Of a stretch of DNA of 49,925 nt, positions 3,647-36,784 are shown one piece after another. The DNA comes from an uncultured Eubacteriales bacterium (GTDB taxonomy: Bacteria; Bacillota; Clostridia; Christensenellales; Aristaeellaceae): assembly GCA_900315315.1 (NCBI GenBank), contig OMYT01000038.1, forward strand, positions 1 through 49,925. The letters run 5' to 3'. The stretch's first letter is position 1, and every line of letters starts with the position of its first letter. The position numbers were made by a program, and so were the translations under genes. The notes under the pieces were generated by a model that worked only from the letters and a program-made list of their open reading frames with translations, was not told the DNA's origin and did not search any database.

Positions 3647-3686
3647 CCGAAGGAGGTTTGGAAGGCAATCGGAAAGCCCTCCAAAT
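3647..3686 (+). repeat. Structured intergenic repeat, copy 1 (simple form)
   Basis: Two bases after the stop codon at 3645. Form: CCGAAGGAGG-TTTGGAAGGC-AATCGG-AAAGCCCTCCAAA. The stem TTTGGA-GGC/GCC-TCCAAA differs from the GGGGGG/CCCCCC stem of other copies, yet pairs except for one A-C mismatch. Confidence 0.8.
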
Positions 3687-3700
3687 GAAAAGTATCCTGT

Positions 3701-3768
3701 CCGAAGGAGGTTTGGGGGGCAAAGGCGCCAGTGGCGCCTTTGTTGGAAGGGTAGGAAAGCCCCCCAAT
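3701..3768 (+). repeat. Structured intergenic repeat, copy 2 (with GGCGCC hairpin insert)
   Basis: Outer stem TTGGGGGGC/GCCCCCCAA, nine pairs. It encloses an inner hairpin CAAAGGCGCC-AGT-GGCGCCTTTG and a linker TTGGAAGGGTA. It ends ten bases before the Lgt-like gene start. Confidence 0.85.
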
Positions 3769-3777
3769 AGCTAACTG

Positions 3778-4884
3778 ATGCAACCGATTCTGACCCTGGG
3801 GCCCCTTTATGTGACCCCATACAGTCTGACCGTCCTGGCCGGCGTTCTCGCCGGCCTTCTTCTGGTCTGGCGGAAAAAGGCCGTCCGGCCGCTGCTGCCC
3901 GCGGTCATCCTCGGCGCGCTGCTGCTGGGGCATATCTGCTGGACCCTCTTCTGCCCGCCGGACCTGGAGGCGGCGGAAGGCATCTTCTTCATGATGCTGC
4001 GTCCCTGGCAGGGCGGCTACACGCTGTACGGCGCGCTGCTCGGCGGGGCCCTCGGCGCCCTGATCGCCGGAAAGGTTGCCGGCGTCAGATGGCTGGACGC
4101 ACTGGACGCGCTGGCTCCCGGCGCCTGCGCCGTCATCTTCTTCGCCCGGATCGGTGAAGTATTTACCGGGGAAGGCATCGGCCGCTGGGCGGAAATGGAC
4201 TGGACCCATTTCTTCCCCCTCTCCATCTGCACCTATCACGATGAATTCTTTGAAGAATGGCGTTACCTGGTCTGGTCCTGGGAAGCGCTGGTTGCGCTGA
4301 TTCTGCTCATCGTACTCCTGAGGCGGGAGCGCAAAGCGCCCCCCCGCGGGCACCAGACCGCCGTGTTCCTCACCGTTCTGGGAACAACGCAGATCCTCCT
4401 GGAACAAATGCGCCGGGACAACTATCTGCGGCTCATCATCTTCGTCAGGGTCAACCAGCTGGCAGCCGTTATTACGCTGCTGATCGTCCTGATTGCGCTC
4501 CTCATCCGGAACAAGCCCGGCAAAGCCGCCGTGATCCTGAGCCTGGCCGTCTTTGTGCTGGCGGCGCTGGCGGATATGGCTTCGGAGTTTGTTTTCGATA
4601 AGTATGAATACGCACCTTTCCTGTTCATCAGCATGCCGCTTGCCGCAGCTGCCTTCGCTGTCCTGATGCTGGTCAGGAAAAAGAAACAGGGCATCCTGCC
4701 GGCCGCCCTGATCTGCGCTGCCGCAATCGCTCTCCTGATCGGCTACGCGGCAAAAGACTGGAATAATATCGAGATCACCCCCGAGCTGGATATGATCCGC
4801 TTCGCAATTCTTTACGCCACCATGGCCGTAGATATGCTCTGCATCGGCCTGACCATCCGCCTGCACCTGAAAGAAGCAGAGTAG
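3778..4884 (+). CDS. Lgt-like polytopic membrane protein lacking key Lgt residues
   Basis: A 368-residue protein with about ten hydrophobic helices. The first 220 residues align with prolipoprotein diacylglyceryl transferase: 'GGYTLYGALLGG' (80-90), 'ARIGEVFTGEGIGR' (123-136) and 'ILLEQMRRDN' (206-215). R124, E132 and the E209/R212 region are kept, but the catalytic His of the HGG motif is Tyr (Y84) and the Asn of GNF is Glu (E127). A 150-residue extension adds four to five helices not found in canonical Lgt (260-300 residues). It is probably not a classical Lgt and may act on another lipid or headgroup (inference). The next gene starts ten bases after the stop. Confidence 0.7.
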   Translation: MQPILTLGPLYVTPYSLTVLAGVLAGLLLVWRKKAVRPLLPAVILGALLLGHICWTLFCPPDLEAAEGIFFMMLRPWQGGYTLYGALLGGALGALIAGKVAGVRWLDALDALAPGACAVIFFARIGEVFTGEGIGRWAEMDWTHFFPLSICTYHDEFFEEWRYLVWSWEALVALILLIVLLRRERKAPPRGHQTAVFLTVLGTTQILLEQMRRDNYLRLIIFVRVNQLAAVITLLIVLIALLIRNKPGKAAVILSLAVFVLAALADMASEFVFDKYEYAPFLFISMPLAAAAFAVLMLVRKKKQGILPAALICAAAIALLIGYAAKDWNNIEITPELDMIRFAILYATMAVDMLCIGLTIRLHLKEAE

Positions 4885-4894
4885 GAGAATATTT

Positions 4895-7522
4895 ATGAGA
4901 AGCGTCAACAAGGGACTTGTATTTACGAACGACAGGTGTATCGGCTGCAACAAGTGCATCCGCGCCTGCAGCTGCATCGGCGCCTGCGTATCGACAGAGC
5001 CCGACGAAAACGGGAATTCAAGGATCATGGTTGACGGGAATCTCTGCGTGGCGTGCGGCGCCTGCTTTGATATCTGCGAACATAACGCCCGGGATTTCAG
5101 CGACGATACGGAATGGTTCCTTGAGGACCTGAAGGCGGGCGAAAAAATATCCCTTCTGGTCGCTCCCTCCTTCCCCGCGAATTATCCGGATACTTACGCG
5201 AAAATCTTCGGCAAACTGAAAGAGCTCGGCGTGAACCGGATCATCAGCGTATCCTTCGGCGCGGACATCACCACCTGGGGATATATCCATTACATCCAAA
5301 AGCACGGTTTTACGGGCGGTATTTCCCAGCCCTGCCCGGCGGTTGTCGGTTATATCGAACGGTATCTGCCGGATCTGCTCCCGAAGCTCTTCCCGGTCCA
5401 GAGCCCCCTGATGTGCGCGGCCATATACGCCCGCAAGGAACTCGGCATTACGGATAAACTCGCGTTCATCAGCCCCTGCATCGCCAAAAAGCTGGAGATC
5501 GACGACCCGAACAACCACGGGGCCGTCAGTTATAACGTGACCTTCACTCACCTGGTTGACTATGCGGAAAAGCACGGTCTTTACGGGGAACCCTGCGAAG
5601 ATGAGATCGAGTACGGCCTGGGCTCGATTTATCCGATACCGGGCGGATTAAGGGAAAACGTCCTGTGGCTCCTCGGCCGGGACGCGTTCATCCGTCAGAT
5701 TGAGGGCGAAAAAAGGCTCTTCCATTATCTGGAAAAGAACAGGGATCTCCTGCGGGACGGAAAAACCCCGTTCCTCTTTGTCGACGCGCTGAACTGTGAA
5801 AAGGGCTGTATCTGCGGTACGGGGACGGATCTGTCCCTCTCTTCCACCGATTATGCCCTGTATCATCTTCACGACATCCAGGAAGCCGTCAAAAAGAACG
5901 CTGCCGGCAGCCCCTGGTCGAAATACGCGACGCCGGAAGAGCGGCTTGCCTGCCTCAACAAACAGTTTGAACACCTGAACCCCGAAGATTACCTGCGGTC
6001 CTATACGGACAGGTCTGCGCAGTGTTCCCTGAGGATCCCCGACCCCGAGGAGCTGGAAATCATCTTCCTGGAAATGAACAAAACCGATGAATCCTCCCGG
6101 CACATCAACTGCTCCTGCTGCGGGTATGACACCTGCACGGAAATGGCAACGGCGATCCATAACGGCTTCAACCACAAGGAAAACTGCATCCACTATCTGA
6201 AGGACATGTATGTGCAGAAAGCCGCTGAAACCGATATCATGACCGGGCTTCCGAACGCCGCCGGGTTCAGGACGTTTGTGAACCGAATACGGGCCGCCGG
6301 AACGCTGACGGCATACAACGCGTTCTATATCAATCTGAAGAGTTTCGGACTCATCAACAAGCATTACGGAAAGCAGGAAGCGGACAATATCATCGTCCGC
6401 TTTGCGGAACTGCTTCTGTCCTATACGGATGATCATGAGTGCGCGGGGCGCCTGTCCGGGGATGCATTCATCCTCATGGTCCGCAAAGAAAAGACGGAGG
6501 ATGTGCTGAAACTGACGTCAGGGGTAAATATCCGCGCCTGCATGAACGGCCAGGAGGAAATGGCAACCCTGCAGGCCGTCGCCGGCTGTCTGGACATTGA
6601 CGATGATGAAATGGACAGCGAGGGCATCATCGGGAGATGCTCAACGGCGCTGAACGTTGCCCGGTACGAGAAGCACGTGCCGTATTTATTCTCAACGCCT
6701 GAAATGCACAGCAAGGCCATCCGTCAGAAACAGATCCTTTCCGTTTTCGCGGAAGCCCTTGAAAACGGAGAATTCAGGCCCTATTATCAGCCGAAGGTCA
6801 ACACAAAAACCAAAACCCTCGCCGGCGCGGAAGCGCTGGTGCGCTGGATCCGGGACGGAGCCGTCATTGCGCCCGGCGAATTTATCCCCGTGCTCGAAAC
6901 CGGCGACAGTATCTGCGTCCTGGATTTCCATATCTTCGAGCAGGTCTGCAGGGATATCCGCACATGGATCGATGCGGGCGTCGAACCTGTGCGCATCTCC
7001 ACCAATTTCTCCCGCAGGAACCTGGCGGATCCCCGGTTTTCCGAAAAAATCAGGAACATTCTGGCAGCCTATGACATTCCGAAGCGCTATATCGAAGTGG
7101 AAGTCACCGAAACCATCAGCGAAGAGGAAAACGACAGGCTCAGCCGGTTTATCCATGAAATGCGTGAATCGGAGATCGCCATGGCGATTGATGACTTCGG
7201 AACAGGCTATTCTTCCCTGAATCTGCTGAGGGATTTCCAGGCCGATGTCCTGAAACTCGACAAATCCTTCATTGACAGGCACACCGACACGAAACGCGAC
7301 AGCGTCGTGGTATCAAATGTGGCGAAAATGGCCAATGAACTGGATATGAGCGTGATCACCGAAGGCGTTGAGAAATGGGAACAGGTCGAGTTCCTGAAAA
7401 GCGTCAATATCAATATGGTGCAGGGTTTTCTGTTTGATAAACCGCTTCCGAAGGAAGATTTTGAAAAGCGGTTAAGGCAAAAGATTTATGACGAACCGTC
7501 AGCCGGAAAACATCCTGAATAA
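4895..7522 (+). CDS. [FeFe]-hydrogenase-like sensor fused to degenerate GGDEF and intact EAL domains
   Basis: An 875-residue multidomain protein. Residues 15-25 and 51-61 hold two [4Fe-4S] motifs (CxxCxxCxxxC). Residues 85-350 are an H-cluster domain with the four cluster ligands present: C147 in QPCPA (L1), C195 in SPCIAKK (L2), C301 and C305 in NCEKGC (L3). The proton-transfer Cys before C147 is Pro, as in sensory (group C) hydrogenases. Residues 406-431 form a further Fe-S motif (CSCCGYDTC...KENC). Residues 445-600 are GGDEF-like but read SGDAF, so no cyclase is expected. Residues 615-865 are EAL with E646, N704, E736/E739, D766-D767, K787, E823 and Q843 all present, so c-di-GMP phosphodiesterase is predicted. 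Soluble. A terminator follows. Confidence 0.9.
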   Translation: MRSVNKGLVFTNDRCIGCNKCIRACSCIGACVSTEPDENGNSRIMVDGNLCVACGACFDICEHNARDFSDDTEWFLEDLKAGEKISLLVAPSFPANYPDTYAKIFGKLKELGVNRIISVSFGADITTWGYIHYIQKHGFTGGISQPCPAVVGYIERYLPDLLPKLFPVQSPLMCAAIYARKELGITDKLAFISPCIAKKLEIDDPNNHGAVSYNVTFTHLVDYAEKHGLYGEPCEDEIEYGLGSIYPIPGGLRENVLWLLGRDAFIRQIEGEKRLFHYLEKNRDLLRDGKTPFLFVDALNCEKGCICGTGTDLSLSSTDYALYHLHDIQEAVKKNAAGSPWSKYATPEERLACLNKQFEHLNPEDYLRSYTDRSAQCSLRIPDPEELEIIFLEMNKTDESSRHINCSCCGYDTCTEMATAIHNGFNHKENCIHYLKDMYVQKAAETDIMTGLPNAAGFRTFVNRIRAAGTLTAYNAFYINLKSFGLINKHYGKQEADNIIVRFAELLLSYTDDHECAGRLSGDAFILMVRKEKTEDVLKLTSGVNIRACMNGQEEMATLQAVAGCLDIDDDEMDSEGIIGRCSTALNVARYEKHVPYLFSTPEMHSKAIRQKQILSVFAEALENGEFRPYYQPKVNTKTKTLAGAEALVRWIRDGAVIAPGEFIPVLETGDSICVLDFHIFEQVCRDIRTWIDAGVEPVRISTNFSRRNLADPRFSEKIRNILAAYDIPKRYIEVEVTETISEEENDRLSRFIHEMRESEIAMAIDDFGTGYSSLNLLRDFQADVLKLDKSFIDRHTDTKRDSVVVSNVAKMANELDMSVITEGVEKWEQVEFLKSVNINMVQGFLFDKPLPKEDFEKRLRQKIYDEPSAGKHPE

Positions 7523-7554
7523 TTGAGATTTTTTTCGAAATACAAAGATTGTAT

Positions 7555-7593
7555 GAGCTTTCTGCTGAAAACAGGCAGAAAGCTCTTCTTTTT
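7555..7593 (+). terminator. Rho-independent terminator after the hydrogenase-EAL gene
   Basis: An 11-bp stem, GAGCTTTCTGC (7555-7565) with GCAGAAAGCTC (7575-7585), followed by TTCTTTTT. It lies 33 bases after the stop at 7522. Confidence 0.9.
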
Positions 7594-7606
7594 GACCTTT
7601 TATTAC

Positions 7607-7623
7607 TTTGACTTTCTTTGACT
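7607..7623 (-). promoter_or_regulatory. CtsR operator upstream of hsp20
   Basis: The minus strand reads AGTCAAA-GAA-AGTCAAA, an exact match to the CtsR direct heptad consensus RGTCAAA-nAn-RGTCAAA. A third heptad, GGTCAAA, lies at 7591-7597. The operator overlaps the -35 of the downstream promoter. Confidence 0.8.
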
Positions 7624-7635
7624 TTCATGTATACT
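7608..7635 (+). promoter_or_regulatory. Promoter for hsp20
   Basis: TTGACT (7608-7613), a 16-base spacer and TATACT (7630-7635), with TATAAT overlapping at 7635-7640. The -35 sits inside the CtsR heptads, so CtsR binding would exclude RNA polymerase. Confidence 0.65.
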
Positions 7636-7733
7636 ATAATCAGCGTTCGGGAGAACGGGGTGGCTGATGACCACAGCACGAGATTTCCCGGCCGGCACAA
7701 GCCGGAACCGGATAAAAGAATGGAGGGTTTTGT

Positions 7734-8189
7734 ATGAGTTCTTTCCTGCCTGCTGTTTTCGGTGAAAATATGATGGACCTGTTTGACGATTTCGACCGTG
7801 ATTTCTTCCGCGGTTTCGACCGTCCGGAGCGGGTGCTCTACGGCAAGAATGCCGCCCGGATGATGAAGACCGACGTGAAGGAAACGGACGAAGGCTATGA
7901 GCTGGCGGTCGACCTGCCCGGCTTCAAGAAGGAAGAAATCCATATCGAGCTGCAGAACGGCTACCTGACCATCTCCACGGAAAAGAACCTGGAGAACAAG
8001 GAAGAGAAGGAAGGCAAACTGCTTCGCCAGGAGCGGTATACCGGCACCATGCAGCGCAGCTTCTACGTGGGTCAGAACCTCACGGAGGAAGACATCACGG
8101 CGAAGTACGAGGATGGCGTCCTGAAGGTTGATCTGCCCAAGAAGGAAGCCCGCAAGGTTCCCGAAAAGAAACAGATCCTGATCGGATAA
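7734..8189 (+). CDS. Hsp20/alpha-crystallin small heat-shock protein
   Basis: A 151-residue cytosolic holdase chaperone that binds unfolding proteins during heat or other stress. The alpha-crystallin domain spans about residues 42-145: 'KTDVKETDEGYELAVDLPGF', 'KEEIHIELQNGYLTIS' and the C-terminal 'YEDGVLKVDLPKK' (the G-V-L signature). The tail 'KQILIG' ends with the I-x-I/V-type motif used in oligomer assembly. The N-terminal arm is Phe/Asp-rich, as is usual. Start 7734 follows GGAGGG; a downstream ATG pair (about residues 13-14) is less likely. It is a single-gene unit under a CtsR-type operator and ends at a strong terminator. Confidence 0.95.
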   Translation: MSSFLPAVFGENMMDLFDDFDRDFFRGFDRPERVLYGKNAARMMKTDVKETDEGYELAVDLPGFKKEEIHIELQNGYLTISTEKNLENKEEKEGKLLRQERYTGTMQRSFYVGQNLTEEDITAKYEDGVLKVDLPKKEARKVPEKKQILIG

Positions 8190-8204
8190 TCACCCGAAAA
8201 GCAC

Positions 8205-8243
8205 AGCGCGGATTCCATGAACGGAATCCGCGCTCATTTTGTA
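8205..8243 (+). terminator. Terminator after hsp20
   Basis: A 12-bp stem AGCGCGGATTCC (8205-8216) / GGAATCCGCGCT (8223-8234), followed by CATTTTGT and later CTTTTTC. It may also act for the convergent trxB on the other strand. Confidence 0.8.
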
Positions 8244-8262
8244 TCTCTTTTTCCTCAACATC

Positions 8263-8410
8263 CCGAAGGGGTTTGGGGGGTTCGACGCGCCCGGAAAACT
8301 GTCCAGTGGACAGTTTTCAGCTGAACGATGTCGCGTGCGGTGCGCGAGCCGGCACACCGGCCGCGGTGCGCGTGCGATTCCTAACGGCAGCCCAGGGAGG
8401 AAAGCCCCCA
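8263..8410 (+). repeat. Structured intergenic repeat, copy 3 (long composite form)
   Basis: It starts CCGAAGGGGTTTGGGGGG and ends GGAAAGCCCCC, with about 115 bases inserted. The insert holds a perfect 11-bp hairpin GAAAACTGTCC-AGT-GGACAGTTTTC (8294-8318) and a GC-rich part, GATGTCGCG.GCGGTGCGCGAGC... CACCGGCCGCGGTGCGCGTG, shared with copy 8. It lies between the convergent hsp20 and trxB genes, three bases from the trxB stop. Confidence 0.85.
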
Positions 8411-8412
8411 CA

Positions 8413-9333
8413 TCATTCCCCACATGCATCAATATACCTGCATGCCGCCAGCGCCGCCGCGGCGCCGTCCGCCACGGCCGTCGTCAGCTGCCGGACCTTT
8501 TTGCTCCGGCAGTCCCCGGCTGCATAAACCCCGGCGGTCCTGGTAATACAGTTTTCATCGCTGTCAAAATATCCCCAGGTATTCAGGTCCGCCAGTTCGG
8601 CGAACGCTTCATTCTCCGGAATCAGCCCGATGGCCACAAACAGGCCGTCGCACTCCACCTTCCGGGCCTCGCCGCCCGCCTGCGGTTCCACCGTCACGCT
8701 GCGGAGATTCCCGTCCTCGGTGTTCAGCGCCGTAATTTTCACGCCGGTATATTTTTCCACATTGGGCCGGGCAAAAAGGATCTCCTGCAGTTTCTTTTCC
8801 CCCGTGAATTCAGGCAGGTCCTGCAGCATGATGACCTTTTCGCATTTCCCGGCCAGCAGGATCGCCTCCTGCAGGGCGGAATTGCCGCCCCCGGCAACGC
8901 ATACGGTTTTCCCGGTGTAGAAATCCCCGTCGCACACGGCGCAGAAGCTGATCCCCTCGCCCACCAGTTCGTTCTCCCCCGGCAGGCCGAGCATCCGGTG
9001 CTTCACGCCTGTGGCAATCACCACAGCCTTGGCGTCCCTCGCCTGGCCGTCATCCGTATAAACCCGCTTGAAGTTTCCGTGATCCTCGATTTTCGTCACC
9101 TCAGCCAGATCCACTTCGGCCCCCTGGTTCATGATCTGGTCCAGAAGCGCTTCCGCGTATTCGTTCCCGCTCATCTGGGCGGTCCCGGGCCAGTTCTCCA
9201 CCTTGGGGCTGTAGGTAATCTGGCCGCCGAACCCGTGTTTTTCGAGCACGAGCGCCGTCTTGCCGTTCCGCTGGGCATACAGGGCGGCCGTCATCCCTGC
9301 AGGACCTCCGCCGACCACAATAATATCTGTCAT
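8413..9333 (-). CDS. trxB: Thioredoxin-reductase-like FAD oxidoreductase, atypical pyridine-nucleotide site
   Basis: A 306-residue protein of the low-molecular-weight thioredoxin reductase family, which passes electrons via FAD and a CxxC disulfide to thioredoxin. Visible: GGGPAG (8-13), the active-site CAVCDGDF (C131, C134), a second dinucleotide fold GGGNSA (148-153) and the C-terminal FAD motif GVYAAGDC. The HRRxxxR element that binds the NADPH 2'-phosphate in classical TrxB is replaced by LQDLPEFTGEKKL, so the donor may be NADH or ferredoxin instead. It lies 54 bases downstream of nrdD, whose product carries its own Trx domain, so the two are likely partners. The spacer holds a terminator-like hairpin and a GGAGGG ribosome site. 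Confidence 0.85.
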   Translation of the reverse strand: MTDIIVVGGGPAGMTAALYAQRNGKTALVLEKHGFGGQITYSPKVENWPGTAQMSGNEYAEALLDQIMNQGAEVDLAEVTKIEDHGNFKRVYTDDGQARDAKAVVIATGVKHRMLGLPGENELVGEGISFCAVCDGDFYTGKTVCVAGGGNSALQEAILLAGKCEKVIMLQDLPEFTGEKKLQEILFARPNVEKYTGVKITALNTEDGNLRSVTVEPQAGGEARKVECDGLFVAIGLIPENEAFAELADLNTWGYFDSDENCITRTAGVYAAGDCRSKKVRQLTTAVADGAAAALAACRYIDACGE

Positions 9334-9344
9334 CTTTCCCTCCG

Positions 9345-9370
9345 AAAAAAGGGGACGCAGCCGCGTCCCC
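9345..9370 (-). terminator. Intrinsic terminator/attenuator between nrdD and trxB
   Basis: On the minus strand GGGGACGC-GGCT-GCGTCCCC (9370-9351) is followed by TTTTTT (9350-9345). No promoter fits between it and the trxB start, so trxB probably depends on read-through. Confidence 0.75.
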
Positions 9371-9387
9371 GGTTTATTTTCTCCTGA

Positions 9388-13164: not shown

Positions 13165-13206
13165 CCGAAGGGTTGTTCATAAACGGGCGATCGAAAAGCC
13201 CGCTTA
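13165..13206 (+). repeat. Structured intergenic repeat, copy 4 (divergent)
   Basis: CCGAAGGGTTGTTCATAAACGGGC-GATCG-AAAAGCCCGCTTAT. The stem CGGGC/GCCCG carries a swapped pair relative to other copies (C-G for G-C), keeping pairing. It ends three bases before the araC stop. Confidence 0.7.
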
Positions 13207-18291: not shown

Positions 18292-18330
18292 CCGAAGGGG
18301 TTTAAGGGGGCGATCGGAAAGCCCCCTTAT
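18292..18330 (+). repeat. Structured intergenic repeat, copy 6 (simple form)
   Basis: CCGAAGGGG-TTTAAGGGGGC-GATCGG-AAAGCCCCCTTAT. The stem TAAGGGGGC/GCCCCCTTA is nine pairs. The ddh stop codon (TAA, 18329-18327) is part of this stem. Confidence 0.85.
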
Positions 18331-19301
18331 AACAACTTCTTTCTCATCACATCCGGATCCATAAACGCCAGATCCGCCGGCGGCACATCAAACAGCGTCT
18401 TGCACCCGAAGATCTCCCGCCCGTTCATCCGGACCACCGCCCTCGCGCAGGCCACCAGCACGGAAGCCGTAAATTCAGGATTGGAATCCAGCTTCAGTGA
18501 GAACTCCATCACATGCCTGTGGTTGCCGTCCCCGGTGGAGCCGCAGCGGATCACCTGGCCGCCGTGCGGCAGTTCCATATGATCCCGCTTCATCTCTTCT
18601 TCGGTAATGAAGGTCACCGTCGTATCGTAGTCGGCAAAGTAGTTCGGCATTTCCTTGATCTGCTTCTCGATCAGCGCCTTGTCTGCACCGTCCTCCGCCA
18701 CCACATAGCACTCGCGGGTATGCTTCTGCCGTGTGGTCAGGTCGGGATTCTCCCCGTTTCTGACCTTCTCCAGTGCTTCCTGCACGGGCACGGTATACTG
18801 CCGCGCGTCCTTAACGCCCGGGATCCGGCGGATTGCGTCGCTGTGCCCCTGGCTGACGCCGCGCCCCCAGAAGGTATAGTCTTTCCCGTCCGGCAGCACG
18901 ATGTTCATGTACAGCCGGGCCAGGGAGAACAGCCCTGGATCCCATCCGGCGCTGATGATCGCCGTATGCGCATGCGTAAACGCCGCCTTGTCCACATTGG
19001 CGAAATGCTCGGGAATCCGCGCGTGGGTATCAAAGGAATCCACCACATTAAAATTCCTGACCAGCATAGGGGTCATCTCCGGCAGGTCGGAAGCACTTCC
19101 GCCGCAGATGATCATCGCGTCAATCTCGTCGGCATACTCTTCCGCCTCCTCCGCCGCGTAAACCGGCGTGCCGGTCAGTGTTTTCACCGTCTTCGGGTCC
19201 CGGCGGGTAAACACGCCGAACAGTTCCATATCCGGATTCTGCCGGATCGCCTGCTCCACACCCTTTCCCAGATTCCCGTAACCGTAAATCCCGATCTTCA
19301 T
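18327..19301 (-). CDS. ddh: meso-Diaminopimelate D-dehydrogenase
   Basis: NADPH-dependent reductive amination of L-tetrahydrodipicolinate straight to meso-diaminopimelate, the lysine and peptidoglycan precursor, bypassing the acylated intermediates. 324 residues. The start at 19301 (MKIGIYGYGNLGKGVE) follows GGAGG; the nucleotide-binding motif GYGNLGKG comes at once. Further family motifs are 'SFDTHARIPEHF', 'AGWDPGLFSL', 'FWGRGVSQGHSDAIRRI' and 'HGGQVIRCGSTGDGNHRH'. It is last in the cyclo-ligase-dapA-dapB-ddh operon. The stop codon overlaps a structured repeat. Confidence 0.96.
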   Translation of the reverse strand: MKIGIYGYGNLGKGVEQAIRQNPDMELFGVFTRRDPKTVKTLTGTPVYAAEEAEEYADEIDAMIICGGSASDLPEMTPMLVRNFNVVDSFDTHARIPEHFANVDKAAFTHAHTAIISAGWDPGLFSLARLYMNIVLPDGKDYTFWGRGVSQGHSDAIRRIPGVKDARQYTVPVQEALEKVRNGENPDLTTRQKHTRECYVVAEDGADKALIEKQIKEMPNYFADYDTTVTFITEEEMKRDHMELPHGGQVIRCGSTGDGNHRHVMEFSLKLDSNPEFTASVLVACARAVVRMNGREIFGCKTLFDVPPADLAFMDPDVMRKKLL

Positions 19302-19318
19302 CACGCGTTTCCTCCTCC

Positions 19319-19348
19319 GTGTCATCCCGAGCGTAGTCGAGGGATCTC
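19319..19348 (+). repeat. GTCATCCCGAGCG...GAGGGATC repeat between dapB and ddh
   Basis: GTGTCATCCCGAGCGTAGTC-GAGGGATCTC, imperfectly palindromic (ATCCC...GGGAT). The same unit recurs at 37701, 37767 and 42298. Here it supplies bases of the dapB stop codon. Confidence 0.8.
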
Positions 19349-20084
19349 AATCCTTCATCAAATCTTTCATGTCATACATTCCCGCCGGCTTTCCGACGAT
19401 AAATGCCGCCGCCTTCAGGCTTCCCTCCGCGAAAACGCCGCGGCTGAATGCCTCGTGCTTCAGGGTAATCCGCTCATTCTGCGTCCCGATCATCACCTCG
19501 TGGACGCCCACGATGTTCCCCATCCGGATCGCGTGCATGCCGACCTCATCCTTTGTCCGCTTCCCCAGCCCGCTGCGGCCGCAGTTGGCCTCCGCCGCCG
19601 GCCGCACTTCCTTCACGGCGTTGAAAAGCGCCAGGGCCGTTCCGCTGGGAGCGTCCAGCTTCCGGTCGTGATGCTGCTCCACGATTTCGATCTCGCCGTC
19701 CGGATACAGGGCCGCCGCCCGCCTGACCAGGTCGGTCAGCACAGCGATGCCCAGGGAGTAATTGGCCGCCAGGAAAACCGGGATCTTCTGCGCCGCTTCC
19801 TGAATGCGGGCCTTTTCCTCTTCCGTCTGCCCCGTCGTAGCCAGCACCACCGGAAGCGCCTTTTTTTCTGCGAAATCCAGCAGCGCGCCGGTCATGCTGT
19901 GATGGCTGAAGTCGATGATTACGTCCGCGTCCGTCTTGCAGTCCGCAAAGGAAGAAACGCAGATCCCGTCCGCCGGGATCATCGGATCCACGCCCGCAAC
20001 GATCTCGCTGTATTCGTCCCGCTCGGCGCAGGCGCGCACTTCCCGTCCCATGTGTCCGCCGTATCCGCACAGAATAATTTTCAT
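19347..20084 (-). CDS. dapB: 4-Hydroxy-tetrahydrodipicolinate reductase
   Basis: Second enzyme of the diaminopimelate branch; it reduces the DapA product with NAD(P)H to tetrahydrodipicolinate. 245 residues with GYGGHMGREV (dinucleotide site, residues 5-14), 'VIIDFSHHSM', 'ATTGQTEEE', the catalytic-site 'EIVEQHHDRKLDAPSGTAL' (His pair and Lys; DAPSGTA signature) and C-terminal 'HEVMIGTQNERITLKHEAFSR'. It overlaps dapA by four bases (ATGA-type coupling), so translation is probably linked. Confidence 0.97.
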   Translation of the reverse strand: MKIILCGYGGHMGREVRACAERDEYSEIVAGVDPMIPADGICVSSFADCKTDADVIIDFSHHSMTGALLDFAEKKALPVVLATTGQTEEEKARIQEAAQKIPVFLAANYSLGIAVLTDLVRRAAALYPDGEIEIVEQHHDRKLDAPSGTALALFNAVKEVRPAAEANCGRSGLGKRTKDEVGMHAIRMGNIVGVHEVMIGTQNERITLKHEAFSRGVFAEGSLKAAAFIVGKPAGMYDMKDLMKD

Positions 20085-21699: not shown

Positions 21700-21764
21700 T
21701 CGAATGGGTTTGGGGGCAAAGGCGCCAGTGGCGCCTTTGTTGGAAGGGCAGGAAAGCCCCCAAT
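21700..21764 (+). repeat. Structured intergenic repeat, copy 7 (GGCGCC insert)
   Basis: TCGAATGGG-TTTGGGGGC, the inner hairpin CAAAGGCGCC-AGT-GGCGCCTTTG, TTGGAAGGGCAGG, AAAGCCCCCAA. The outer stem is TTGGGGGC/GCCCCCAA. It lies in the divergent spacer between the cyclo-ligase and pfkB, so it is not downstream of any gene and cannot be a simple terminator there. Confidence 0.85.
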
Positions 21765-22782: not shown

Positions 22783-22918
22783 CCGAAGGGGCTGGGCGAT
22801 GTCGCGCGCGGTGCGCGAGCTGCACATATTGGGCCGCCGCCAGTGGCGGATGAAGGCCCATTGTGTGTTGAGTCACCGGCCGCGGTGCGCGTGCGATTCC
22901 TTGCGGAAAGCCTCCTTA
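22783..22918 (+). repeat. Structured intergenic repeat, copy 8 (long composite form)
   Basis: It starts CCGAAGGGGCTGGGC and ends GCGGAAAGCCTCC. Inside it shares GATGTCGCG.GCGGTGCGCGAGC and CACCGGCCGCGGTGCGCGTG with copy 3. Between these lies a different long hairpin (22823-22867): CACA...TGGGCC and GGCCCA...TGTG arms, with inner CCGCC-AGT-GGCGG. Confidence 0.8.
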
Positions 22919-22964
22919 TTTCACTTCTCAATTGCCCCTTCTCTCCCAATCGACCCGAAGGGGT

Positions 22965-22992
22965 TTAAGGGGGCGATCGGAAAGCCCCCTTA
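22965..22992 (+). repeat. Structured intergenic repeat, copy 9 (simple form)
   Basis: CCGAAGGGG-TTTAAGGGGGC-GATCGG-AAAGCCCCCTTA, nearly identical to copy 6. It ends three bases before the atpC stop codon (22997-22995). Confidence 0.85.
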
Positions 22993-22994
22993 TT

Positions 22995-30843: not shown

Positions 30844-31817
30844 GTGCCCTCCTTTCCGCCGGCCAGATGGCAGCGAACCTCATGCCCCGGCCTGATGCTG
30901 TGCATTTCCGGAAAACGGTCAGCGCAGTCTTTCCCGCATTGATCGCAGCGCAGGGAGAAAGCACAGCCTGCCGGCAGATGAAGCAGGTTCGGCACGACGC
31001 CGCGGATCGTCTCCAATACCGTCTCATTGCGGTTGAGTGCGGCAACTGCGTTCATCAGGCCCCTGGTGTAGGGATGCACCGGGGCTTCGAACAGCGTGAC
31101 GGGGTCCGCGTGCTCCACAATGCTGCCGGCATACATCACGTAAATATCGTCGCAGGTCTGCGCGATGACGCCCAGGTTGTGGCTGATCAGCAGAATGCCG
31201 GTGCCGTCTTCGCACAGTTTCCGCATCAGGCGCAGGATCTGCGCTTCCACTGTCACGTCCAGCGCGGTGGTAGGTTCGTCCGCGATCAGCAGCTTCGGTT
31301 TGCACACCATGGCCATCGCGATCAGCACGCGCTGCCGCAGGCCGCCCGAAAGCTGATGCGGATAGGATTTCAGCCGCTTGTCCGGGTCCGGAATCCCGAC
31401 GGATTCAAATGCTTCAATTGTCCGCCTTTCGGCTTCGTCGCCGGAAACGTCGTTATGGAGAAGAATAGCTTCCTTCACCTGTCTGCCCACGGTCATGACC
31501 GGGTTCAGGCTTGTCATGGGATCCTGGCAGACCATCGAAACTTCCGAACCGCGGACTGCGCAGTACTCCCGCTGCGAAAGCTTTGCGATGTCCCGGCCGT
31601 TCAGGAGGATTTCCCCGGCAACCAGCCGGCCGGGATGCGGGATCAGGCCCATGACGCTTCGCGCCAGCATGGACTTGCCGCATCCGCTTTCCCCGACAAT
31701 GCCGGTGATCTTTCCCGCGCCGACCGTAAGGGAAACATCACGAACGGCCTTCAGTTCCCCCTTCTCCGTAAAGAAGCTGGTGCAAAGATTGCGAATCTCA
31801 AGCGTATTCATCCCCAA
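30840..31817 (-). CDS. dppD: Oligopeptide/dipeptide ABC transporter ATPase (DppD/OppD)
   Basis: Second ATPase of the importer, 325 residues. Walker [10 protein letters not shown], '[20 protein letters not shown]' Q-loop, signature [13 protein letters not shown], Walker [15 protein letters not shown], '[11 protein letters not shown]'. The C-terminal domain has '[14 protein letters not shown]' and '[20 protein letters not shown]'. In the first P-loop the final residue is Met rather than Thr/Ser after K (GKSM, with S retained), as in other DppD proteins. The start is 63 bases downstream of the dppC stop, with repeat copy 10 between. Confidence 0.96.
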
Positions 31818-31840
31818 TATCCTTTAAAAAAACATACTCC

Positions 31841-31881
31841 CCGAAGGGGGTTTGGGGGGGCGATCGGAAAGCCCCCCAATT
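31841..31881 (+). repeat. Structured intergenic repeat, copy 10, inside the dpp operon
   Basis: CCGAAGGGGG-TTTGGGGGGGC-GATCGG-AAAGCCCCCCAATT. It fills the dppC-dppD spacer; its right edge overlaps the dppC stop codon (TAA, 31882-31880). Since dppD and dppF lie beyond it, it cannot be a full terminator. Confidence 0.85.
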
Positions 31882-32788
31882 ATTTCTGCAAATGCGGATC
31901 CATCACATCGCGCAGCCCGTCCCCCAGGAAATTGAACGCCAGAACGGTCAGCATGATGGCAACGCACGGGGCAAAACTCAGCCATGGCGCGGTGTACAGA
32001 TACTGCCGCCCCTGGTTGACCATCAGTCCCCAGGAAGCCGCCGGCGGCTGAACGCCCAGACCGAGGAAACTGAGGCCGCTTTCCGTGAGTATGGAAGACG
32101 GCACATTCAGCGTGAAGAGCACGATCAGTGTCGGAATACAGTTTGGCAGAATGTGCCGCAGCAGAATTTTGCTCCGCGATACACCGGTTACGCGGGCCGC
32201 CTCCACATATTCCAGTTCCTTCAGCCGGAGCGTCTCTGCCCGCACAACGCGCGCGACGCTGGCCCAGTTGACGATGGAAAGCGTCAGGAAAATATTGATG
32301 AGCCCGTCACCGAGCATGTACATCAGGACCATGGCCAGCAGGATCGACGGGAACGCCAGCATCACATCCGCGATCCGCATGATCACCGTGTCCGTCTTTC
32401 CGCCGGCAAACCCCGCGAGGATCCCGAGCGCCGCGCCGATCGCCATGCTCAGCAGCGTCGGAACAATCCCGATCAGCAGGCTGACCCGGGCGCCGTAAAG
32501 CAGGCGCGTAAACACGTCCCGGCCGCCTTCGTCCGTGCCGAGCAGGTGCGCGGCGGACGGCGGCGCCAGCCGGTTCGCCAGATCCATTTCGTCATAGGTG
32601 TAGGGAGTCAGCAGCGGCGCGAACACCGCGGCCAGAACAAACAGGATGATGACGCCGAAGGAGATGACGGCAAGCTTGTTTTCCCTCACCATGCGCCGCA
32701 TCATGGTCCCGAAGGTCTGCGCCTCGCCGATCTGGCTTTCCAGCCCGGCCGTCCGGACAATTTGATCAATTTTCTTTTTCCGGTTCAT
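31880..32788 (-). CDS. dppC: Dipeptide/oligopeptide ABC permease (DppC)
   Basis: A 302-residue membrane permease. The start at 32788 (MNRKKKIDQIVRTAG) follows GGAGGCGG and overlaps the last base of the dppB TGA. Family features: N-terminal OppC extension, 'LLGTDEGGRDVFTRLLYGAR', the EAA loop 'EYVEAARVTGVSRSKILLRH' and 'LTESGLSFLGLGVQPPAASWG', ending 'FNFLGDGLRDVMDPHLQK'. An open frame extends far upstream within dppB but its translation is out-of-frame noise. The stop is embedded in repeat copy 10. Confidence 0.96.
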   Translation of the reverse strand: MNRKKKIDQIVRTAGLESQIGEAQTFGTMMRRMVRENKLAVISFGVIILFVLAAVFAPLLTPYTYDEMDLANRLAPPSAAHLLGTDEGGRDVFTRLLYGARVSLLIGIVPTLLSMAIGAALGILAGFAGGKTDTVIMRIADVMLAFPSILLAMVLMYMLGDGLINIFLTLSIVNWASVARVVRAETLRLKELEYVEAARVTGVSRSKILLRHILPNCIPTLIVLFTLNVPSSILTESGLSFLGLGVQPPAASWGLMVNQGRQYLYTAPWLSFAPCVAIMLTVLAFNFLGDGLRDVMDPHLQK

Positions 32789-33714
32789 CACTCCGCCTCC
32801 TTCCGGATCCGCGGATCCAGCACGGAATAGAGGCAGTCGGCAAGCAGATTGCCGAAGATGACCACCATCGTCGCGAAAAGGGTGGTTCCCTGCAGCAGCG
32901 GAATATCCCGCCCGGAGATTGCCTGAACCGCCAGGCGGCCGATTCCGTTGATGGAGAAGACCGTCTCGGTGATCACGGCGCCGGAAAGAAGTCCCGAAAA
33001 CTGCATGGCCATCATCGTCAGCACCGGGAGCATCGTATTTCGCAGGGCGTGCCGCCAGATCACTCCCATCTGACCCAGGCCCTTGGCCCTGGCCGTGTCG
33101 ATATAATCCTCCTGGAGCACGTCCAGCAGCGTGGAGCGCACCAGCCGGGCAATGCTGCCGGCGGAGTTCCACCCCAGCGCAATGGCGGGGAGAATATAGC
33201 CCTTCCAGCTGTCGGTTCCCGAGATGGGAAGCCAGTGCAGCACATATCCGAACAGATACTGCAGCAGCATCGCCACCATGAACACCGGCACGGAAACACC
33301 GAGAAGAGAAAAGCCCATGAAAAGGCGGTCCGGAATCCCGTCCTTCCGAAGCGCGGCGAAAACCCCGCAGAAAATTCCCAGGCACCAGGCAAACAGCACC
33401 GCCGCGACGGTAAGCTTCAGCGTGTTCCCGAAGGCAGCCGCCATCAGCTGGGACACCGGCTTGCCCAGGGAGTAGCTGGTCCCGAATTCCCCGCGGAACG
33501 CGTCGCCGATATAGCGGAAAAACTGGACCAGGATCGGCTGATCCAGGCCGAGCTCCGCCGTCATCCGGTCAACGGTCGCCTGGTTGGCATGCTCGCCCAT
33601 CAGGGTTTCAACAGGGTTGCCGGGAACAATACGCAGCATAATAAACAGGATCAGCGCCACGCCGAGCATGACGCCGATAGCCTGCAAAATCCGCTTCAGT
33701 AATGTACGGGCCAT
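32788..33714 (-). CDS. dppB: Dipeptide/oligopeptide ABC permease (DppB)
   Basis: A 308-residue permease: 'MARTLLKRILQAIGVMLGVA' first helix, 'LRIVPGNPVETLMGEHA' (the P-G-[DN]-P periplasmic segment), 'LGLDQPILVQFFRYIGDAFR', the EAA loop 'VLQEDYIDTARAKGLGQMGV', and 'LLSGAVITETVFSINGIGRL'. Typical DppB/OppB length. It starts five bases after the binding-protein stop and shares one base with the dppC start. Confidence 0.96.
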   Translation of the reverse strand: MARTLLKRILQAIGVMLGVALILFIMLRIVPGNPVETLMGEHANQATVDRMTAELGLDQPILVQFFRYIGDAFRGEFGTSYSLGKPVSQLMAAAFGNTLKLTVAAVLFAWCLGIFCGVFAALRKDGIPDRLFMGFSLLGVSVPVFMVAMLLQYLFGYVLHWLPISGTDSWKGYILPAIALGWNSAGSIARLVRSTLLDVLQEDYIDTARAKGLGQMGVIWRHALRNTMLPVLTMMAMQFSGLLSGAVITETVFSINGIGRLAVQAISGRDIPLLQGTTLFATMVVIFGNLLADCLYSVLDPRIRKEAE

Positions 33715-33718
33715 ATAA

Positions 33719-35308
33719 TTATTTCATCACCACATCCGTCGCAAAGAAATCCGTAAACCCTGCCCACTGGGGCGTAAAGCTCTGCACCCGGTCCCCGATG
33801 CAGTACAGATGCAGCGTCGAATACATCGGAACCCACGCGGCATCCTCGACGATGATCTTCTCGTCCAGCGCCTGATACTCTTTCTCCCGCTCAGCGTCGT
33901 CCACGATGGCGGAAGCAGCGGCAACCCGGGCCATCACTTCGGTGTTCGGATAGTTCTCGCTGCGGAGGGCGCTGTTCTGCGCGTTGCCGAAGAAGGTGAA
34001 CATGATGTTGGCCGGATCGTTGTAGTCCATACCCCACCGGGCGATGAAGCAATCCATTTCGCCGGAGTTCCGCAGCGCCAGATACGAGGCTTTGTCGTAG
34101 GCCTTGATATTGGCGTTGATCCCGATCTTTTTCAGCTCCTGGCTGATGAACTGGTAAACCAGCTGGGTATTGCTGTCCGTGGTGGAGTCCATGGAGAATT
34201 CAAAGGTAATGTCGCCGTCTTTGTATCCGGCTTCCTGCAGGAGCTTCCGGGCCTGGTCCGGGTCATACGGGAAACTCGTCTGCTCATTGTTGTGGCCCCA
34301 GACGCCGGAAGGAATGAGGCAGTATTCCCGCTTCGCGTTTCCGTTGAAGATGTTTTTGATGATGGAGTCGATATCGATGGCCATCCCGACAGCCTTCCGC
34401 ACATTGACGTCCTTCAGGTACTGGTTGTTCTCGTTCATGATGATAAAGGTCAACCCCACATCCGGCGTGCTGACGATCTTGTCCGCGTACTGCGTCTTGT
34501 AGGTGTTTTCCACAATCATGGTATCCATGCTCTTCAGGTCAATCAGGTCCAGCTCGCCGTTCTGGTACATCAGGTTCTGCGTGTTGGCGTCCGGGATCAC
34601 CTTCACCACGAGCTTCTTCACGCTCGGCTCCTCACCCTGGTATTTGGGATTGTATACCAGCGTGTAGTGGTCGTTCGCGACCCATTCGGTCACGATATAG
34701 GGACCTGTGCCGATGGTATCCGCAGGGTCCACGCCGAAGTTCTTCACCTGTTCCATGGTCTCTGCGTCGACGATCGACATGGCCGGCGCGCTCAGCTCCG
34801 CCACGAATCCGGCGTTCGCATTGTTCAGCGTCACGGAGAAATGCGTGTCGTCCGTCACCGTGAAGCCTTCCAGGGAATCCGCCTCGCCTTTCATCACGGC
34901 TTCACCGCCGACGACTTCCAGCGGAATGTCCGTGTTCTGGTCCGCGATTTTCAGCAGCCGTTCAAAGCTGTATTTCACGTCGGAGGCGGTCAGCGCGCTG
35001 CCATTGGAGAAGACCACCCCGTCCTTCAGCGTGAAGTTGTATGTCTTCCCGTCTTCGCTCACGCTGTAGTCGGTGCACAGGCTGTTCTCGATCTTGCTTG
35101 CCCCGTTCTCCGGCCGGCTTTCAAACAGGCGCTCAAACACATTCATCGGTATGAGATAGTTGTCCGTCGTGTGCGCCACGTCCATCGTCGAGATTTCGTA
35201 GAGGACCGCAGTGACCATCGTCCCCGCTTCCTCCTCTGCGAAGGCTGCCGGCACAAAAAACGCCAGCAAAAGGGTCAGTGCTGTCAGGATTGCTGTCAAC
35301 TTTTTCAT
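33719..35308 (-). CDS. dppA: Peptide-binding ABC protein (SBP_bac_5 family)
   Basis: Exported binding protein for the dpp system. The start at 35308 follows AGGAGG; a further in-frame ATG at 35353 is not supported. Signal MKKLTAILTALTLLLAFFVP followed by AAFAEEE, a signal-peptidase I site with no lipobox Cys, as in the other binding protein of this window. The mature protein reads as family 5: 'LKDGVVFSNGSALTASDVKY', 'GTGPYIVTEWVANDHYTLVY', 'VRKAVGMAIDIDSIIKNIFN', 'YDPDQARKLLQEAGYKDGD'. 529 residues. First gene of the dppABCDF operon. Confidence 0.94.
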   Translation of the reverse strand: MKKLTAILTALTLLLAFFVPAAFAEEEAGTMVTAVLYEISTMDVAHTTDNYLIPMNVFERLFESRPENGASKIENSLCTDYSVSEDGKTYNFTLKDGVVFSNGSALTASDVKYSFERLLKIADQNTDIPLEVVGGEAVMKGEADSLEGFTVTDDTHFSVTLNNANAGFVAELSAPAMSIVDAETMEQVKNFGVDPADTIGTGPYIVTEWVANDHYTLVYNPKYQGEEPSVKKLVVKVIPDANTQNLMYQNGELDLIDLKSMDTMIVENTYKTQYADKIVSTPDVGLTFIIMNENNQYLKDVNVRKAVGMAIDIDSIIKNIFNGNAKREYCLIPSGVWGHNNEQTSFPYDPDQARKLLQEAGYKDGDITFEFSMDSTTDSNTQLVYQFISQELKKIGINANIKAYDKASYLALRNSGEMDCFIARWGMDYNDPANIMFTFFGNAQNSALRSENYPNTEVMARVAAASAIVDDAEREKEYQALDEKIIVEDAAWVPMYSTLHLYCIGDRVQSFTPQWAGFTDFFATDVVMK

Positions 35309-35382
35309 GGAAAAATCCTCCTGAATCATAAAAATCATTTCCTGTTTAGTCAAATCCTGGATAACTCAGAATAAACAGATTT

Positions 35383-35411
35383 ATTTTACAGAAAAAACAG
35401 ACATTTGTAAA
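35383..35411 (-). promoter_or_regulatory. Promoter of the dpp operon
   Basis: On the minus strand TTTACA (35411-35406), a 17-base spacer, TAAAAT (35388-35383); 75 bases upstream of the dppA start. Confidence 0.7.
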
Positions 35412-35428
35412 TGAGGGATCAGGAATCG

Positions 35429-35457
35429 TTGACGCGGACGGCATTCCAATGTAAAAT
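35429..35457 (+). promoter_or_regulatory. Promoter of the zinc-ribbon membrane protein gene
   Basis: TTGACG (35429-35434), a 17-base spacer, TAAAAT (35452-35457), 58 bases before ATG 35515; ribosome site AAAGGAG. Confidence 0.7.
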
Positions 35458-35514
35458 TGGGTAAGCGATACCATCTTCCGGACTGATTGAGCCGGATAAA
35501 GGAGATCTTACAAT

Positions 35515-36645
35515 ATGTCAAAGCTTGTCATGGGATACTGGGACTGCCCCTTCTGCGGCTCCAAAGGGATCCGCGGGGACGTGGTCAACTGCCCTTCCTG
35601 CGGCCGGGCCCGCGGAGACGTCCAGTTTTATATGAAGGACTACGACGAGGGCGAAACCCGGGAAGAGAACGATCGCGCGGATGTCGAGTATCTCAGTGAA
35701 GAGCAGGCGAAATACGTCAGCAAAAATCCGGACTGGTACTGTTCCTTCTGTAATTCCCTGAACAGTGACAACGCGCAGTTCTGCGGCAACTGCGGCGCCA
35801 GCCGGGCGGATTCCGAGAGCAATTATTTCCAGATGCTGGAAAAGAAAAAGGCCCGCGAGGCCGCGGAAGCCGCGGCGCAGGCCGGGAACAAAGCCCAGCA
35901 GAAGCCCTCCCGCAAGCCGCTGTTCATCATCCTGGCGCTCCTGCTGGTCATCGTCGGCGTCTTCGTGTTCATGAACGGGAACAAGACCGCCGGCGACCTG
36001 AAGGTCACCGCCCTGAACTGGGTCCGGAACATCAATATCGAAGAGAACCGGATGTTCAGCGAGTCCGGCTGGGAGCTGCCTTCCGGTGCGGAGAAAACCG
36101 ACGCCCGAAACGAGATTCATCATTACGACCAGGTGCTTGACCATTATGAGAATGTCGATGTCCGGCGTTCCCGCCAGGTGGTTGATCACTATGAGACCTA
36201 TTACACTTACTCCGACAACGGCAACGGCACCTTCACCGAGGTCCCCCACGAGCGTCCGGTCTACACCACGGAGTATTATACCGAAACCGTGCGCCAGCCG
36301 GTCTACCGCTCCGTCCCGCGCTATGCAACAAAGTATTACTACAACATCTGGCGCTGGACGCCCTCCCGGGATGTGACCGCCCGGGGAGATGACCATAACA
36401 CCGCCTGGCCGGAGGTGACCCTCGCGGAGAACGAGCGCGAAGGCCAGCGCTCCGAAGCCTACCGTTTCACCGTCGAGCATACGCAGAAAAACAAGCCTGC
36501 CGAAACCTACCGCCTGGCCGAAAGCGACTGGATGAACCTCAACGTCGGCGACCAGCTCTATATCACCGCCAAACGCACCGGCTCAAATCCCTATATCTCC
36601 GATGAAAAGGGAAACAAAATAGCAGACCTTGTCCAGGAAAAATAA
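35515..36645 (+). CDS. Membrane protein with two RanBP2-like zinc fingers
   Basis: A 376-residue protein of unknown function. Two zinc fingers of the W-x-C-x2-C...C-x2-C type: 'YWDCPFCGSKG...CPSCGRARGD' (C11, C14, C26, C29) and 'DWYCSFCNSLNSDNAQFCGN' (about 73-92, W/N spacing as in RanBP2 fingers). A basic/Ala-rich helix follows, then a single membrane helix 'PLFIILALLLVIVGVFVFMN' (about 135-154). The C-terminal 220 residues are rich in Tyr and Thr ('YTTEYYTETVRQPVYRSVPR'), probably extracytoplasmic. Cytosolic fingers with an external domain suggest a sensor or scaffold (inference). Own promoter; monocistronic. Confidence 0.85.
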   Translation: MSKLVMGYWDCPFCGSKGIRGDVVNCPSCGRARGDVQFYMKDYDEGETREENDRADVEYLSEEQAKYVSKNPDWYCSFCNSLNSDNAQFCGNCGASRADSESNYFQMLEKKKAREAAEAAAQAGNKAQQKPSRKPLFIILALLLVIVGVFVFMNGNKTAGDLKVTALNWVRNINIEENRMFSESGWELPSGAEKTDARNEIHHYDQVLDHYENVDVRRSRQVVDHYETYYTYSDNGNGTFTEVPHERPVYTTEYYTETVRQPVYRSVPRYATKYYYNIWRWTPSRDVTARGDDHNTAWPEVTLAENEREGQRSEAYRFTVEHTQKNKPAETYRLAESDWMNLNVGDQLYITAKRTGSNPYISDEKGNKIADLVQEK

Positions 36646-36661
36646 AAATGGTTATGACAAA

Positions 36662-36705
36662 CCCCGAAGCAATCTGAACCGCTCCGGGGCTTTGCATCTC
36701 TTCTT
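36662..36705 (+). terminator. Weak terminator after the zinc-ribbon gene
   Basis: CCCCGAAGC (36662-36670) / GCTCCGGGG (36681-36689), one mismatch, followed by CTTTGCATCTCTTCTTT. Confidence 0.5.
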
Positions 36706-36746
36706 TGCTTCTGCAGACTCCGTATTCTGCTTTCCTTAAGTCGAAT

Positions 36747-36784
36747 CCGAAGGGGGTTTGGGGGGCGATCGGGAAGCCCCCCAT
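36747..36784 (+). repeat. Structured intergenic repeat, copy 11 (simple form)
   Basis: CCGAAGGGGG-TTTGGGGGGC-GATCGG-GAAGCCCCCCAT; stem TGGGGGGC/GCCCCCCA. It ends four bases from the lepB stop codon, between convergent genes. Confidence 0.85.

Follow-up and report, generated by a model that had tools for sequence, protein, structure and literature searches.

The 49,925-nucleotide stretch of contig OMYT01000038.1 analysed here (the window), from an uncultured Eubacteriales bacterium, contains eleven copies of a short repeat, all on the + strand. In our assessment, this is probably a non-autonomous DNA repeat, scattered over the genome, whose working form is a folded single strand that combines a pseudoknot with a triplex; the repeat would be mobile and polar with respect to the replication fork. 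As judged from the comparison of copies, covariation supports three parts of the fold, namely the stem S2, the outer pair of a second stem (S1) and a mirror register between S2 and the segment L1. This agrees with the preliminary description of the window, which had proposed a selected RNA or DNA structure. We infer from these patterns that the fold would form a triplex, that it would do so in DNA, and that it would act in single strands exposed at replication forks. The genome to which the window belongs comprises 4.26 Mb in 197 contigs and is 89% complete.

A minimal copy consists, in order, of CCGA, AGG..., a purine-rich stem arm ending in GGGC, GA, TCGG, AAA and GCCC..., with the frame CCGAAGG...GATCGGAAAG. 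In the 61 copies listed, the S2 loop has 9 nt (for example GATCGGAAA) or more. The covariation analysis used 65 distinct copies of 37 nt with a 15-base arm, taken from this genome and related ones (alignment A3). They were chosen from 144 unique copies with arms of 11 to 17, without reference to S2 pairing or the outer S1 pair; in this set the 9-nt loop is fixed by the choice of copies. The search patterns behind most of the loci prescribe the loop and the inner GGGC/GCCC, so that the conservation of these parts is partly a result of how the loci were picked. Paired cells in S2 amounted to 92.7%, compared with 79.9% after shuffling, and the covariation score was 0.340 against 0.132; neither value was reached in any of 500 shuffles. 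Cells changed on both sides numbered 106 (36 in shuffles), and sliding the partners by one column approximately halved the pairing. The remaining two of five measures did not exceed the shuffles, with 6 pairs showing double changes (6.0 expected) and 16 further pair types (16.5 expected). The closing stem had been described as varying while staying paired, and significant covariation had been named as support; three of five measures on the 65 copies bear this out.

The outer pair of S1 also changes in a compensatory manner. Hairpins with an NCGG loop (TCGG or CCGG) carried the CCGA head in 212 cases and GCGA in 1, while those with an NCGC loop (TCGC or CCGC) carried GCGA in 43 and CCGA in 1; another 18 hairpins with one of these loops were left out, as no head could be recognised in them. 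In the 1.96 Mb of fetched sequence (overlaps included), all three hairpins with the loop GATCGCAAA had GCGA in place of CCGA. The outer pair was likewise kept in five of six single copies with other loops (TTGC and GCGC with GCGA; TAGG, TCAG and TCCG with CCGA), and it was broken in the sixth, which combines the loop TCGT with CAGA. Copies with GCGA came from at least five genomes (G094, G079, G080, G070 and G086), of which G080 has both kinds. When loops with a last base other than G were sought by pattern, G094 yielded 272 matches, G086 73 and G079 42; for the remaining 37 of the 40 handles searched, some of which stand for the same genome, the counts were 1 to 14, with 0 to 7 in controls. 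On alignment A3, the outer pair was C-G in 41 copies, G-C in 21 and other in 3.

L1 mirrors the purine arm of S2 with a one-base offset, as in AGGT/CCAGGGC, AGGTTT/CCAAAGGGC, AGGAGT/CCAGAGGGC and AGGGGT/CCAGGGGGC. Across the 65 copies, columns 8/15 held GG in 41, AA in 9, TA in 14 and TT in 1, and columns 9/14 held GG in 40, TA in 22, AG in 2 and GA in 1. Over three column pairs, 172 of 195 combinations fit an antiparallel purine code, compared with a mean of 112 and a maximum of 131 in 2000 shuffles. Mutual information between L1 and S2 peaked in the mirror register at 1.94 bits, the next antiparallel register reaching 0.81 and the best parallel register 0.97; L1 against the partner strand of the same stem gave 1.70 bits, as expected. 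In an earlier overlapping set of 62 arms, 275 of 351 combinations fit, and the maximum in 5000 permutations was 258. An alternative hairpin does not explain the mirror, because G:G and A:A are not Watson-Crick pairs. The arrangement agrees with the sequence definition of a class I intrastrand purine-motif triplex, with the third strand 5', followed by the purine and pyrimidine strands, in antiparallel orientation and with the triplets G·G-C, A·A-T and T·A-T.

We read the minimal copy as a putative single-stranded DNA pseudoknot locked by a class I triplex. In this fold, S1 (CCGA/TCGG) and S2 would form an H-type pseudoknot, and L1 would lie antiparallel along the purine strand of S2 as a reverse-Hoogsteen third strand using the above triplets. 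This would turn S2 into a purine-motif triplex of class I, with S1 locking its tip. The pseudoknot and the mirror between L1 and the stem, both missed in the preliminary description, would favour DNA over RNA. Many copies of the window's own genome are larger and carry further hairpins between S2 and the 3' arm of S1. These modules have a CCAGTGG tip and arms that vary and remain complementary, and they may hold another hairpin. A second co-varying hairpin (TCGCGCC-CGCA-GGCGCGA, with variants) comes after some of the copies. The eleven copies of the window include both forms:

3647..3685, + strand: minimal element, S1 CCGA/TCGG intact, one S2 mismatch
3701..3767, + strand: element with a CCAGTGG hairpin module in its loop
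8263..8409, + strand: long element with further hairpins nested in its loop
13165..13207, + strand: decayed minimal element, CGGGC/GCCCG stem, loop GATCGAAAA
18195..18253, + strand: element with a CCAGTGG hairpin module, outer stem degenerate
18292..18329, + strand: minimal element whose final TTA is the stop codon of the opposite-strand diaminopimelate (DAP) dehydrogenase gene
21700..21763, + strand: element with a CCAGTGG module, in the divergent spacer upstream of a pfkB-family gene
22783..22915, + strand: long element with nested hairpins, missing in the relative G066
22955..22992, + strand: minimal element, missing in G066
31841..31879, + strand: minimal element between two co-directional minus-strand genes, missing in G066
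36747..36783, + strand: minimal element in a convergent spacer

Sequence and pattern search recovered all eleven copies at the places first given for them and on the same strand; ten start positions stand, and the copy placed at 22965 has its head at 22955. The complete CCGA...TCGG pair is kept in the copies at 3647, 18292, 22955, 31841 and 36747, the decayed copy at 13165 has TCGA instead of TCGG, and the copies at 3701, 8263, 18195, 21700 and 22783 contain extra hairpin modules and no TCGG before AAAG. According to simple gene calls, ten copies are intergenic and the one at 18292 overlaps the next gene by its stop codon; the same calls confirm the location of the 31841 copy within a co-directional gene pair and of the 21700 copy in a divergent spacer. 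Among the elements ending in TTA, 6 of 10 end exactly on the stop codon of an opposite-strand open reading frame (18327-18329 in the window, and similar sites), so that the element seems to supply or reuse the neighbouring stop; templating of the 3' stem end by a stop codon does not fit the other 4. Simple hairpin folding of the window copies, a method blind to pseudoknots and triplexes, gave modest z-scores of -0.6 to -2.8, and a MAFFT alignment of nine window copies was not used, as long and short forms were misaligned.

The repeat is abundant and unevenly distributed. The core GATCGGAAAGCC, with at most one mismatch, had 289 matches in the window's own genome (109 forward, 180 reverse), compared with 8 (2 and 6) for the reversed-pattern control, in line with the many copies that had been anticipated. 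A stricter 13-base pattern gave 186 matches against 1 in the control, and within the window GGAAAGCCCCC alone occurred 6 times, always on the + strand, where shuffles predict 0.01. With the pattern GAYCGSAAAGCYC, copies per genome ranged from 0 to 529 across 44 genomes. The highest counts were found in G070 (529), G094 (456), G069 (318), G071 (221), the own genome (186) and G086 (115), followed by G072 (113), G091 (71), G078 (56), G079 (55) and G080 (45). Nine genomes of the same genus besides the own genome held 0 to 43. The pattern CGGAAAGCCC was too short for use in relatives, where 28 of 30 loci were headless, the remaining two being in G004. Among the matches listed, the repeat-bearing records are titled as metagenome-assembled genomes (MAGs) of Clostridia, Clostridiales, Ruminococcus or Lachnospiraceae, many of them from the ruminant gut. 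Outside the genus, G046, of the same order and another family, has 4 exact GATCGGAAAGCC matches against 0 in the control, which are candidates by pattern alone. The window also contains a second, unrelated repeat, TGTCATCCCGAGCGGAGTCGAGGGATCTC, in three copies, two of them in tandem, at 37683-37814 and 19300-19365.

Comparison with relatives suggests that the element is mobile. In G066, the nearest relative by the pfkB-family gene (87% protein identity), three elements around this gene are missing at the aligned site, and the 21700 copy is missing at its site in seven of seven aligned relatives. The 31841 copy is also missing from G066, although this genome holds 43 copies elsewhere. Inverted pairs with inward-facing heads, composed of elements of two subtypes, occur in G070 and G069. 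Sampled stretches of G069, G070, G071 and G080 contained 15 inverted doublets, 13 of which were spaced 109-149 bp and the others 220 and 282; the 61 elements of the own genome, which share a single orientation, included none. At the locus L103 (SIG372), + and - copies alternate in a tandem array that repeats about every 280 bp and resembles a bacterial interspersed mosaic element (BIME). Additionally, copies were present in 43 stretches of a viral collection. When five of these contigs were tested with ten proteins, two had terminase genes and a third an internal virion protein. Terminase-bearing phage contigs carrying the repeat include L377, L415 and other contigs of this collection.

The domain Y1_Tnp (PF01797) was searched for in the own genome, 45 genomes of the genus and 34 genomes reached through loci. 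Ten of the eleven highest-copy genomes (44 counted; draft genomes) gave no PF01797 match; matches were found in 0 of 4 genomes in one set and in none of G078, G079, G080, G086, G091 and G094. The eleventh, the own genome, contains only pieces of a broken IS200/IS605. Its main Y1 match, on contig C49 (L166), is a broken IS200/IS605 with tnpA in pieces followed by a putative tnpB-like sequence, and a further Y1 fragment lies at the end of contig C149. None of 29 Y1 loci had a clear element pair beside the gene; at one of them, L187, a loose match to the full pattern lies at a distance of about 1 kb, and 12 of the loci have loose core matches, candidates by pattern. G001, G002, G004, G023, G035 and others encode RAYT-like Y1 proteins of about 250-340 aa with no clear repeat pair adjoining, and these proteins may serve other REP families.

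Polarity was scored against local GC skew. In the first 434 kb sampled from the own genome, all 61 elements were on the C-rich strand, which we take to be the leading-strand template, and 20 further stretches gave 42 elements on it and 5 off it. One of these 5 is chance-like, one lies in a 4.5-kb contig, two at a skew of -0.002 and one at 0.017; with the chance-like match removed, the total for this genome is 103 to 4. A second species, G004, gave 23 to 1, the 1 being chance-like. On the closed chromosome of G064, ten pattern matches included five complete elements, three on the + strand at 0.65, 1.19 and 1.71 Mb, where the skew is negative, and two on the - strand at 2.35 and 2.37 Mb, where it is positive. 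Headless copies at 0.49 and 0.78 Mb agree with the skew rule, a third on the + strand at 2.42 Mb lies at a local skew of -0.015 within an otherwise positive region, and two of the ten matches are chance-like. Measured in 20 stretches of this chromosome, the skew is below zero between 0.35 and 1.71 Mb; elsewhere it is mostly above zero, apart from a value of -0.065 at 2.75 Mb. Of the viral-collection stretches with an absolute skew of at least 0.09, 28 were scored as on the C-rich strand, 5 as off it and 1 as tied; for all 43 stretches the numbers were 34, 8 and 1. In the 17 named genomes without doublets and with a median skew of at least 0.05, singles were 28 on and 9 off.

Gene context was classified for 60 of the 61 own-genome elements: 12 are flanked by genes of the same strand as the element and 33 by genes of the opposite strand, while 11 lie in convergent and 4 in divergent spacers. 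Gene direction does not explain the orientation, given the 12 own-strand against 33 opposite-strand cases. The preliminary description had noted a single orientation regardless of the genes, which the wider sample upholds. It had also expected a strand bias that switches at the origin and terminus. Copies do follow the local GC skew in the own genome, G004 and G064, whereas genomes with weak skew or inverted pairs are mixed or reversed.

Taken as a mechanism, the element would spread between genes as a mobile unit, as suggested by the empty sites, the inverted pairs and a range from 0 to more than 500 copies per genome, and a Y1/RAYT transposase is probably not the enzyme responsible. Where the skew of a genome is strong, copies would be gained or kept almost exclusively in the orientation that places the triplex-forming strand on the C-rich one, our presumed leading-strand template. 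The most likely cause appears to be insertion coupled to the fork, combined with the loss of any copy that would fold on the exposed lagging-strand template.

Several observations weigh against this reading. Within S1, only the outer pair varies with compensation; the two middle pairs are invariant and uninformative either way, and the fourth is A-T in 48 of 65 copies and unpaired in 17. The third mirror pair of L1 (columns 10/13, TA) is looser, with only 46 of 65 copies fitting. The one-base offset was picked among three tried on overlapping data, and the shuffles ignore relatedness; copies within a genome are related, so that the counts do not represent independent events. Neither a target duplication nor a defined insertion boundary was observed. 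Y1 genes occur in 28 of 45 genomes of the genus and 16 of 30 others, including G004 (32 copies) and G066 (43), and as most of the genomes are incomplete MAGs, a mover gene could be missing from the assemblies. Polarity is also uneven under weak skew, with on:off counts of 15:14 and 3:1 in G070, 6:7 in G069, 5:2 in G071, 1:3 in G072, 5:5 in G079, 6:5 in G080, 2:1 in G086 and 6:22 in G094. Singles gave 13:11 in JAFRPG, 5:17 in JAFWQU (the genome of G071), 5:14 in CALVVZ (G072) and 7:7 in SVHA. In G094, JAFWQU and CALVVZ, where the skew is weak, singles lie preferentially on the G-rich strand, the reverse of the pattern in the own genome. For the weak-skew genomes as a whole, either polarity is lost, or skew is an unreliable guide, or the rule holds in certain lineages only.

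Other explanations account for parts of these data. An RNA element under selection, such as a 3'-end protector, a small RNA or a riboswitch-like pseudoknot, would be equally expected to give pseudoknot covariation, and many copies do lie just after a stop codon. However, orientation ignores transcription, and the antiparallel code of G·G, A·A and T·A is that of the purine motif, which is said not to form in RNA in the available part of PMC4666352; we regard this explanation as unlikely. A REP or REPIN moved in trans by a RAYT (Y1) protein, with the folding rules reflecting what the transposase recognises, would agree with the intergenic, palindromic units, the inward-headed pairs with their narrow spacing and the lineage-specific sites. 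The strand preference would suit single-strand transposition, and relatives, G004 included, encode RAYT-like Y1 proteins. Against it stand the absence of PF01797 from ten of the eleven highest-copy genomes and the broken IS200/IS605 of the remaining one, the own genome, the 29 Y1 loci without a clear pair, and the several low-copy relatives that carry Y1 genes. Mobilisation by RAYT was set aside, as the search of genomes and Y1 loci gave no clear link, and we consider it quite unlikely.

KOPS and SRS are polar sequences that guide FtsK and SpoIIIE. A replication-polar signal of this type under selection, with the fold being secondary, would be in keeping with the strong polarity in the own genome and G004 and with its agreement with skew in G064. 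Yet CCGAAGG outside the elements occurs about 75 times on each strand in the 434 kb (by subtraction), copy number differs widely within the genus, and polarity fails in other high-copy genomes. A KOPS/SRS-like short oligomer was rejected, as CCGAAGG alone is not polar, and the broader explanation has only a small chance of being correct. Ordinary intrinsic terminators or attenuators would likewise be G+C-rich hairpins, often near stop codons, but no T-run was seen by eye on either side, orientation is independent of gene direction, and the 5' arm and loop are conserved and co-varying. These points bear out the earlier view that the copies are not ordinary terminators, an explanation that we regard as very improbable.

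Beyond the folded and mobile DNA repeat that we favour, it is conceivable, and we suggest it tentatively, that the family represents a new kind of mobile element: a 37-nt triplex-locked DNA pseudoknot that would grow by hairpins within its loop, spread (also in phages) through an enzyme other than Y1, and insert or persist in one fork direction only. Intrastrand triplex repeats of E. coli have been known for decades (PMC4666352), and the portions available of the literature give no evidence of selection on the triplex. In the present repeat, the third strand co-varies with its duplex over tens of distinct copies, which speaks, on grounds of natural selection, for a DNA triplex and a DNA pseudoknot in living cells. 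The close association with GC skew makes the role of such folds at replication forks directly testable, and hundreds of copies without RAYT point to an unknown way of spreading.

No named family was known to match the repeat, and the window contained no Rfam family at its gathering cut-off; a relaxed threshold gave 9 weak matches below the cut-off in the window, with E up to 5, among them PhotoRC-I at about 22 bits on the opposite strand (cut-off 45). Furthermore, the repeat family is not described in the portions available of the open-access literature on triplexes, pseudoknots, REPs and replication-polar repeats, a search that left subscription journals outside. The nearest known systems are the E. 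coli BoxC/PIT repeats and the REPs/REPINs.

REPs (repetitive extragenic palindromes) have a GTAG-type head, and BOX repeats are modular. Unlike REPs and REPINs, the present repeat has the head CCGAAGG, a co-varying pseudoknot and third strand, and no Y1 match in most of its highest-copy genomes; an associated RAYT (Y1_Tnp) was not found in the draft genomes searched. It resembles them in being an intergenic palindromic repeat found as singlets and inverted doublets (here 15, in four genomes) at high number within a genome, as far as the available part of PMC3116915 describes them. The pneumococcal BOX and RUP are likewise small interspersed repeats, a likeness by description alone (PMC3049150, in part).

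The likeness to BoxC/PIT, also called TM_ECO, is closer. As described in the available part of PMC4666352, TM_ECO is an intergenic repeat of about 37 nt that is abundant in some species and scarce or missing in closely related ones; its single strand forms a purine-motif triplex, types A and B occur as inverted doublets, and no nearby transposase is reported. The TM_ECO pattern CCCTCNCCCN3-6GGGNGAGGGN3GGGNGAGGG had no matches in the window, the only sequence searched with it. TM_ECO is of class II, with the third strand 3' and loops of 3-6 and 3 nt, whereas the present repeat would be of class I, with the third strand 5' and a loop of at least 9 nt that can nest hairpins, and thus falls outside the ITxF search definition with its loops of 1-6 nt (PMC4666352, in part). 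The loop of the present repeat also contains a co-varying pseudoknot pair. No strand bias is reported for TM_ECO in that part of the source, in contrast to the present copies, which follow GC skew in several genomes. The two nevertheless share size, intergenic site, patchy copy number and inverted doublets, and the fold proposed for the present repeat would likewise contain a purine-motif triplex (PMC4666352, in part).

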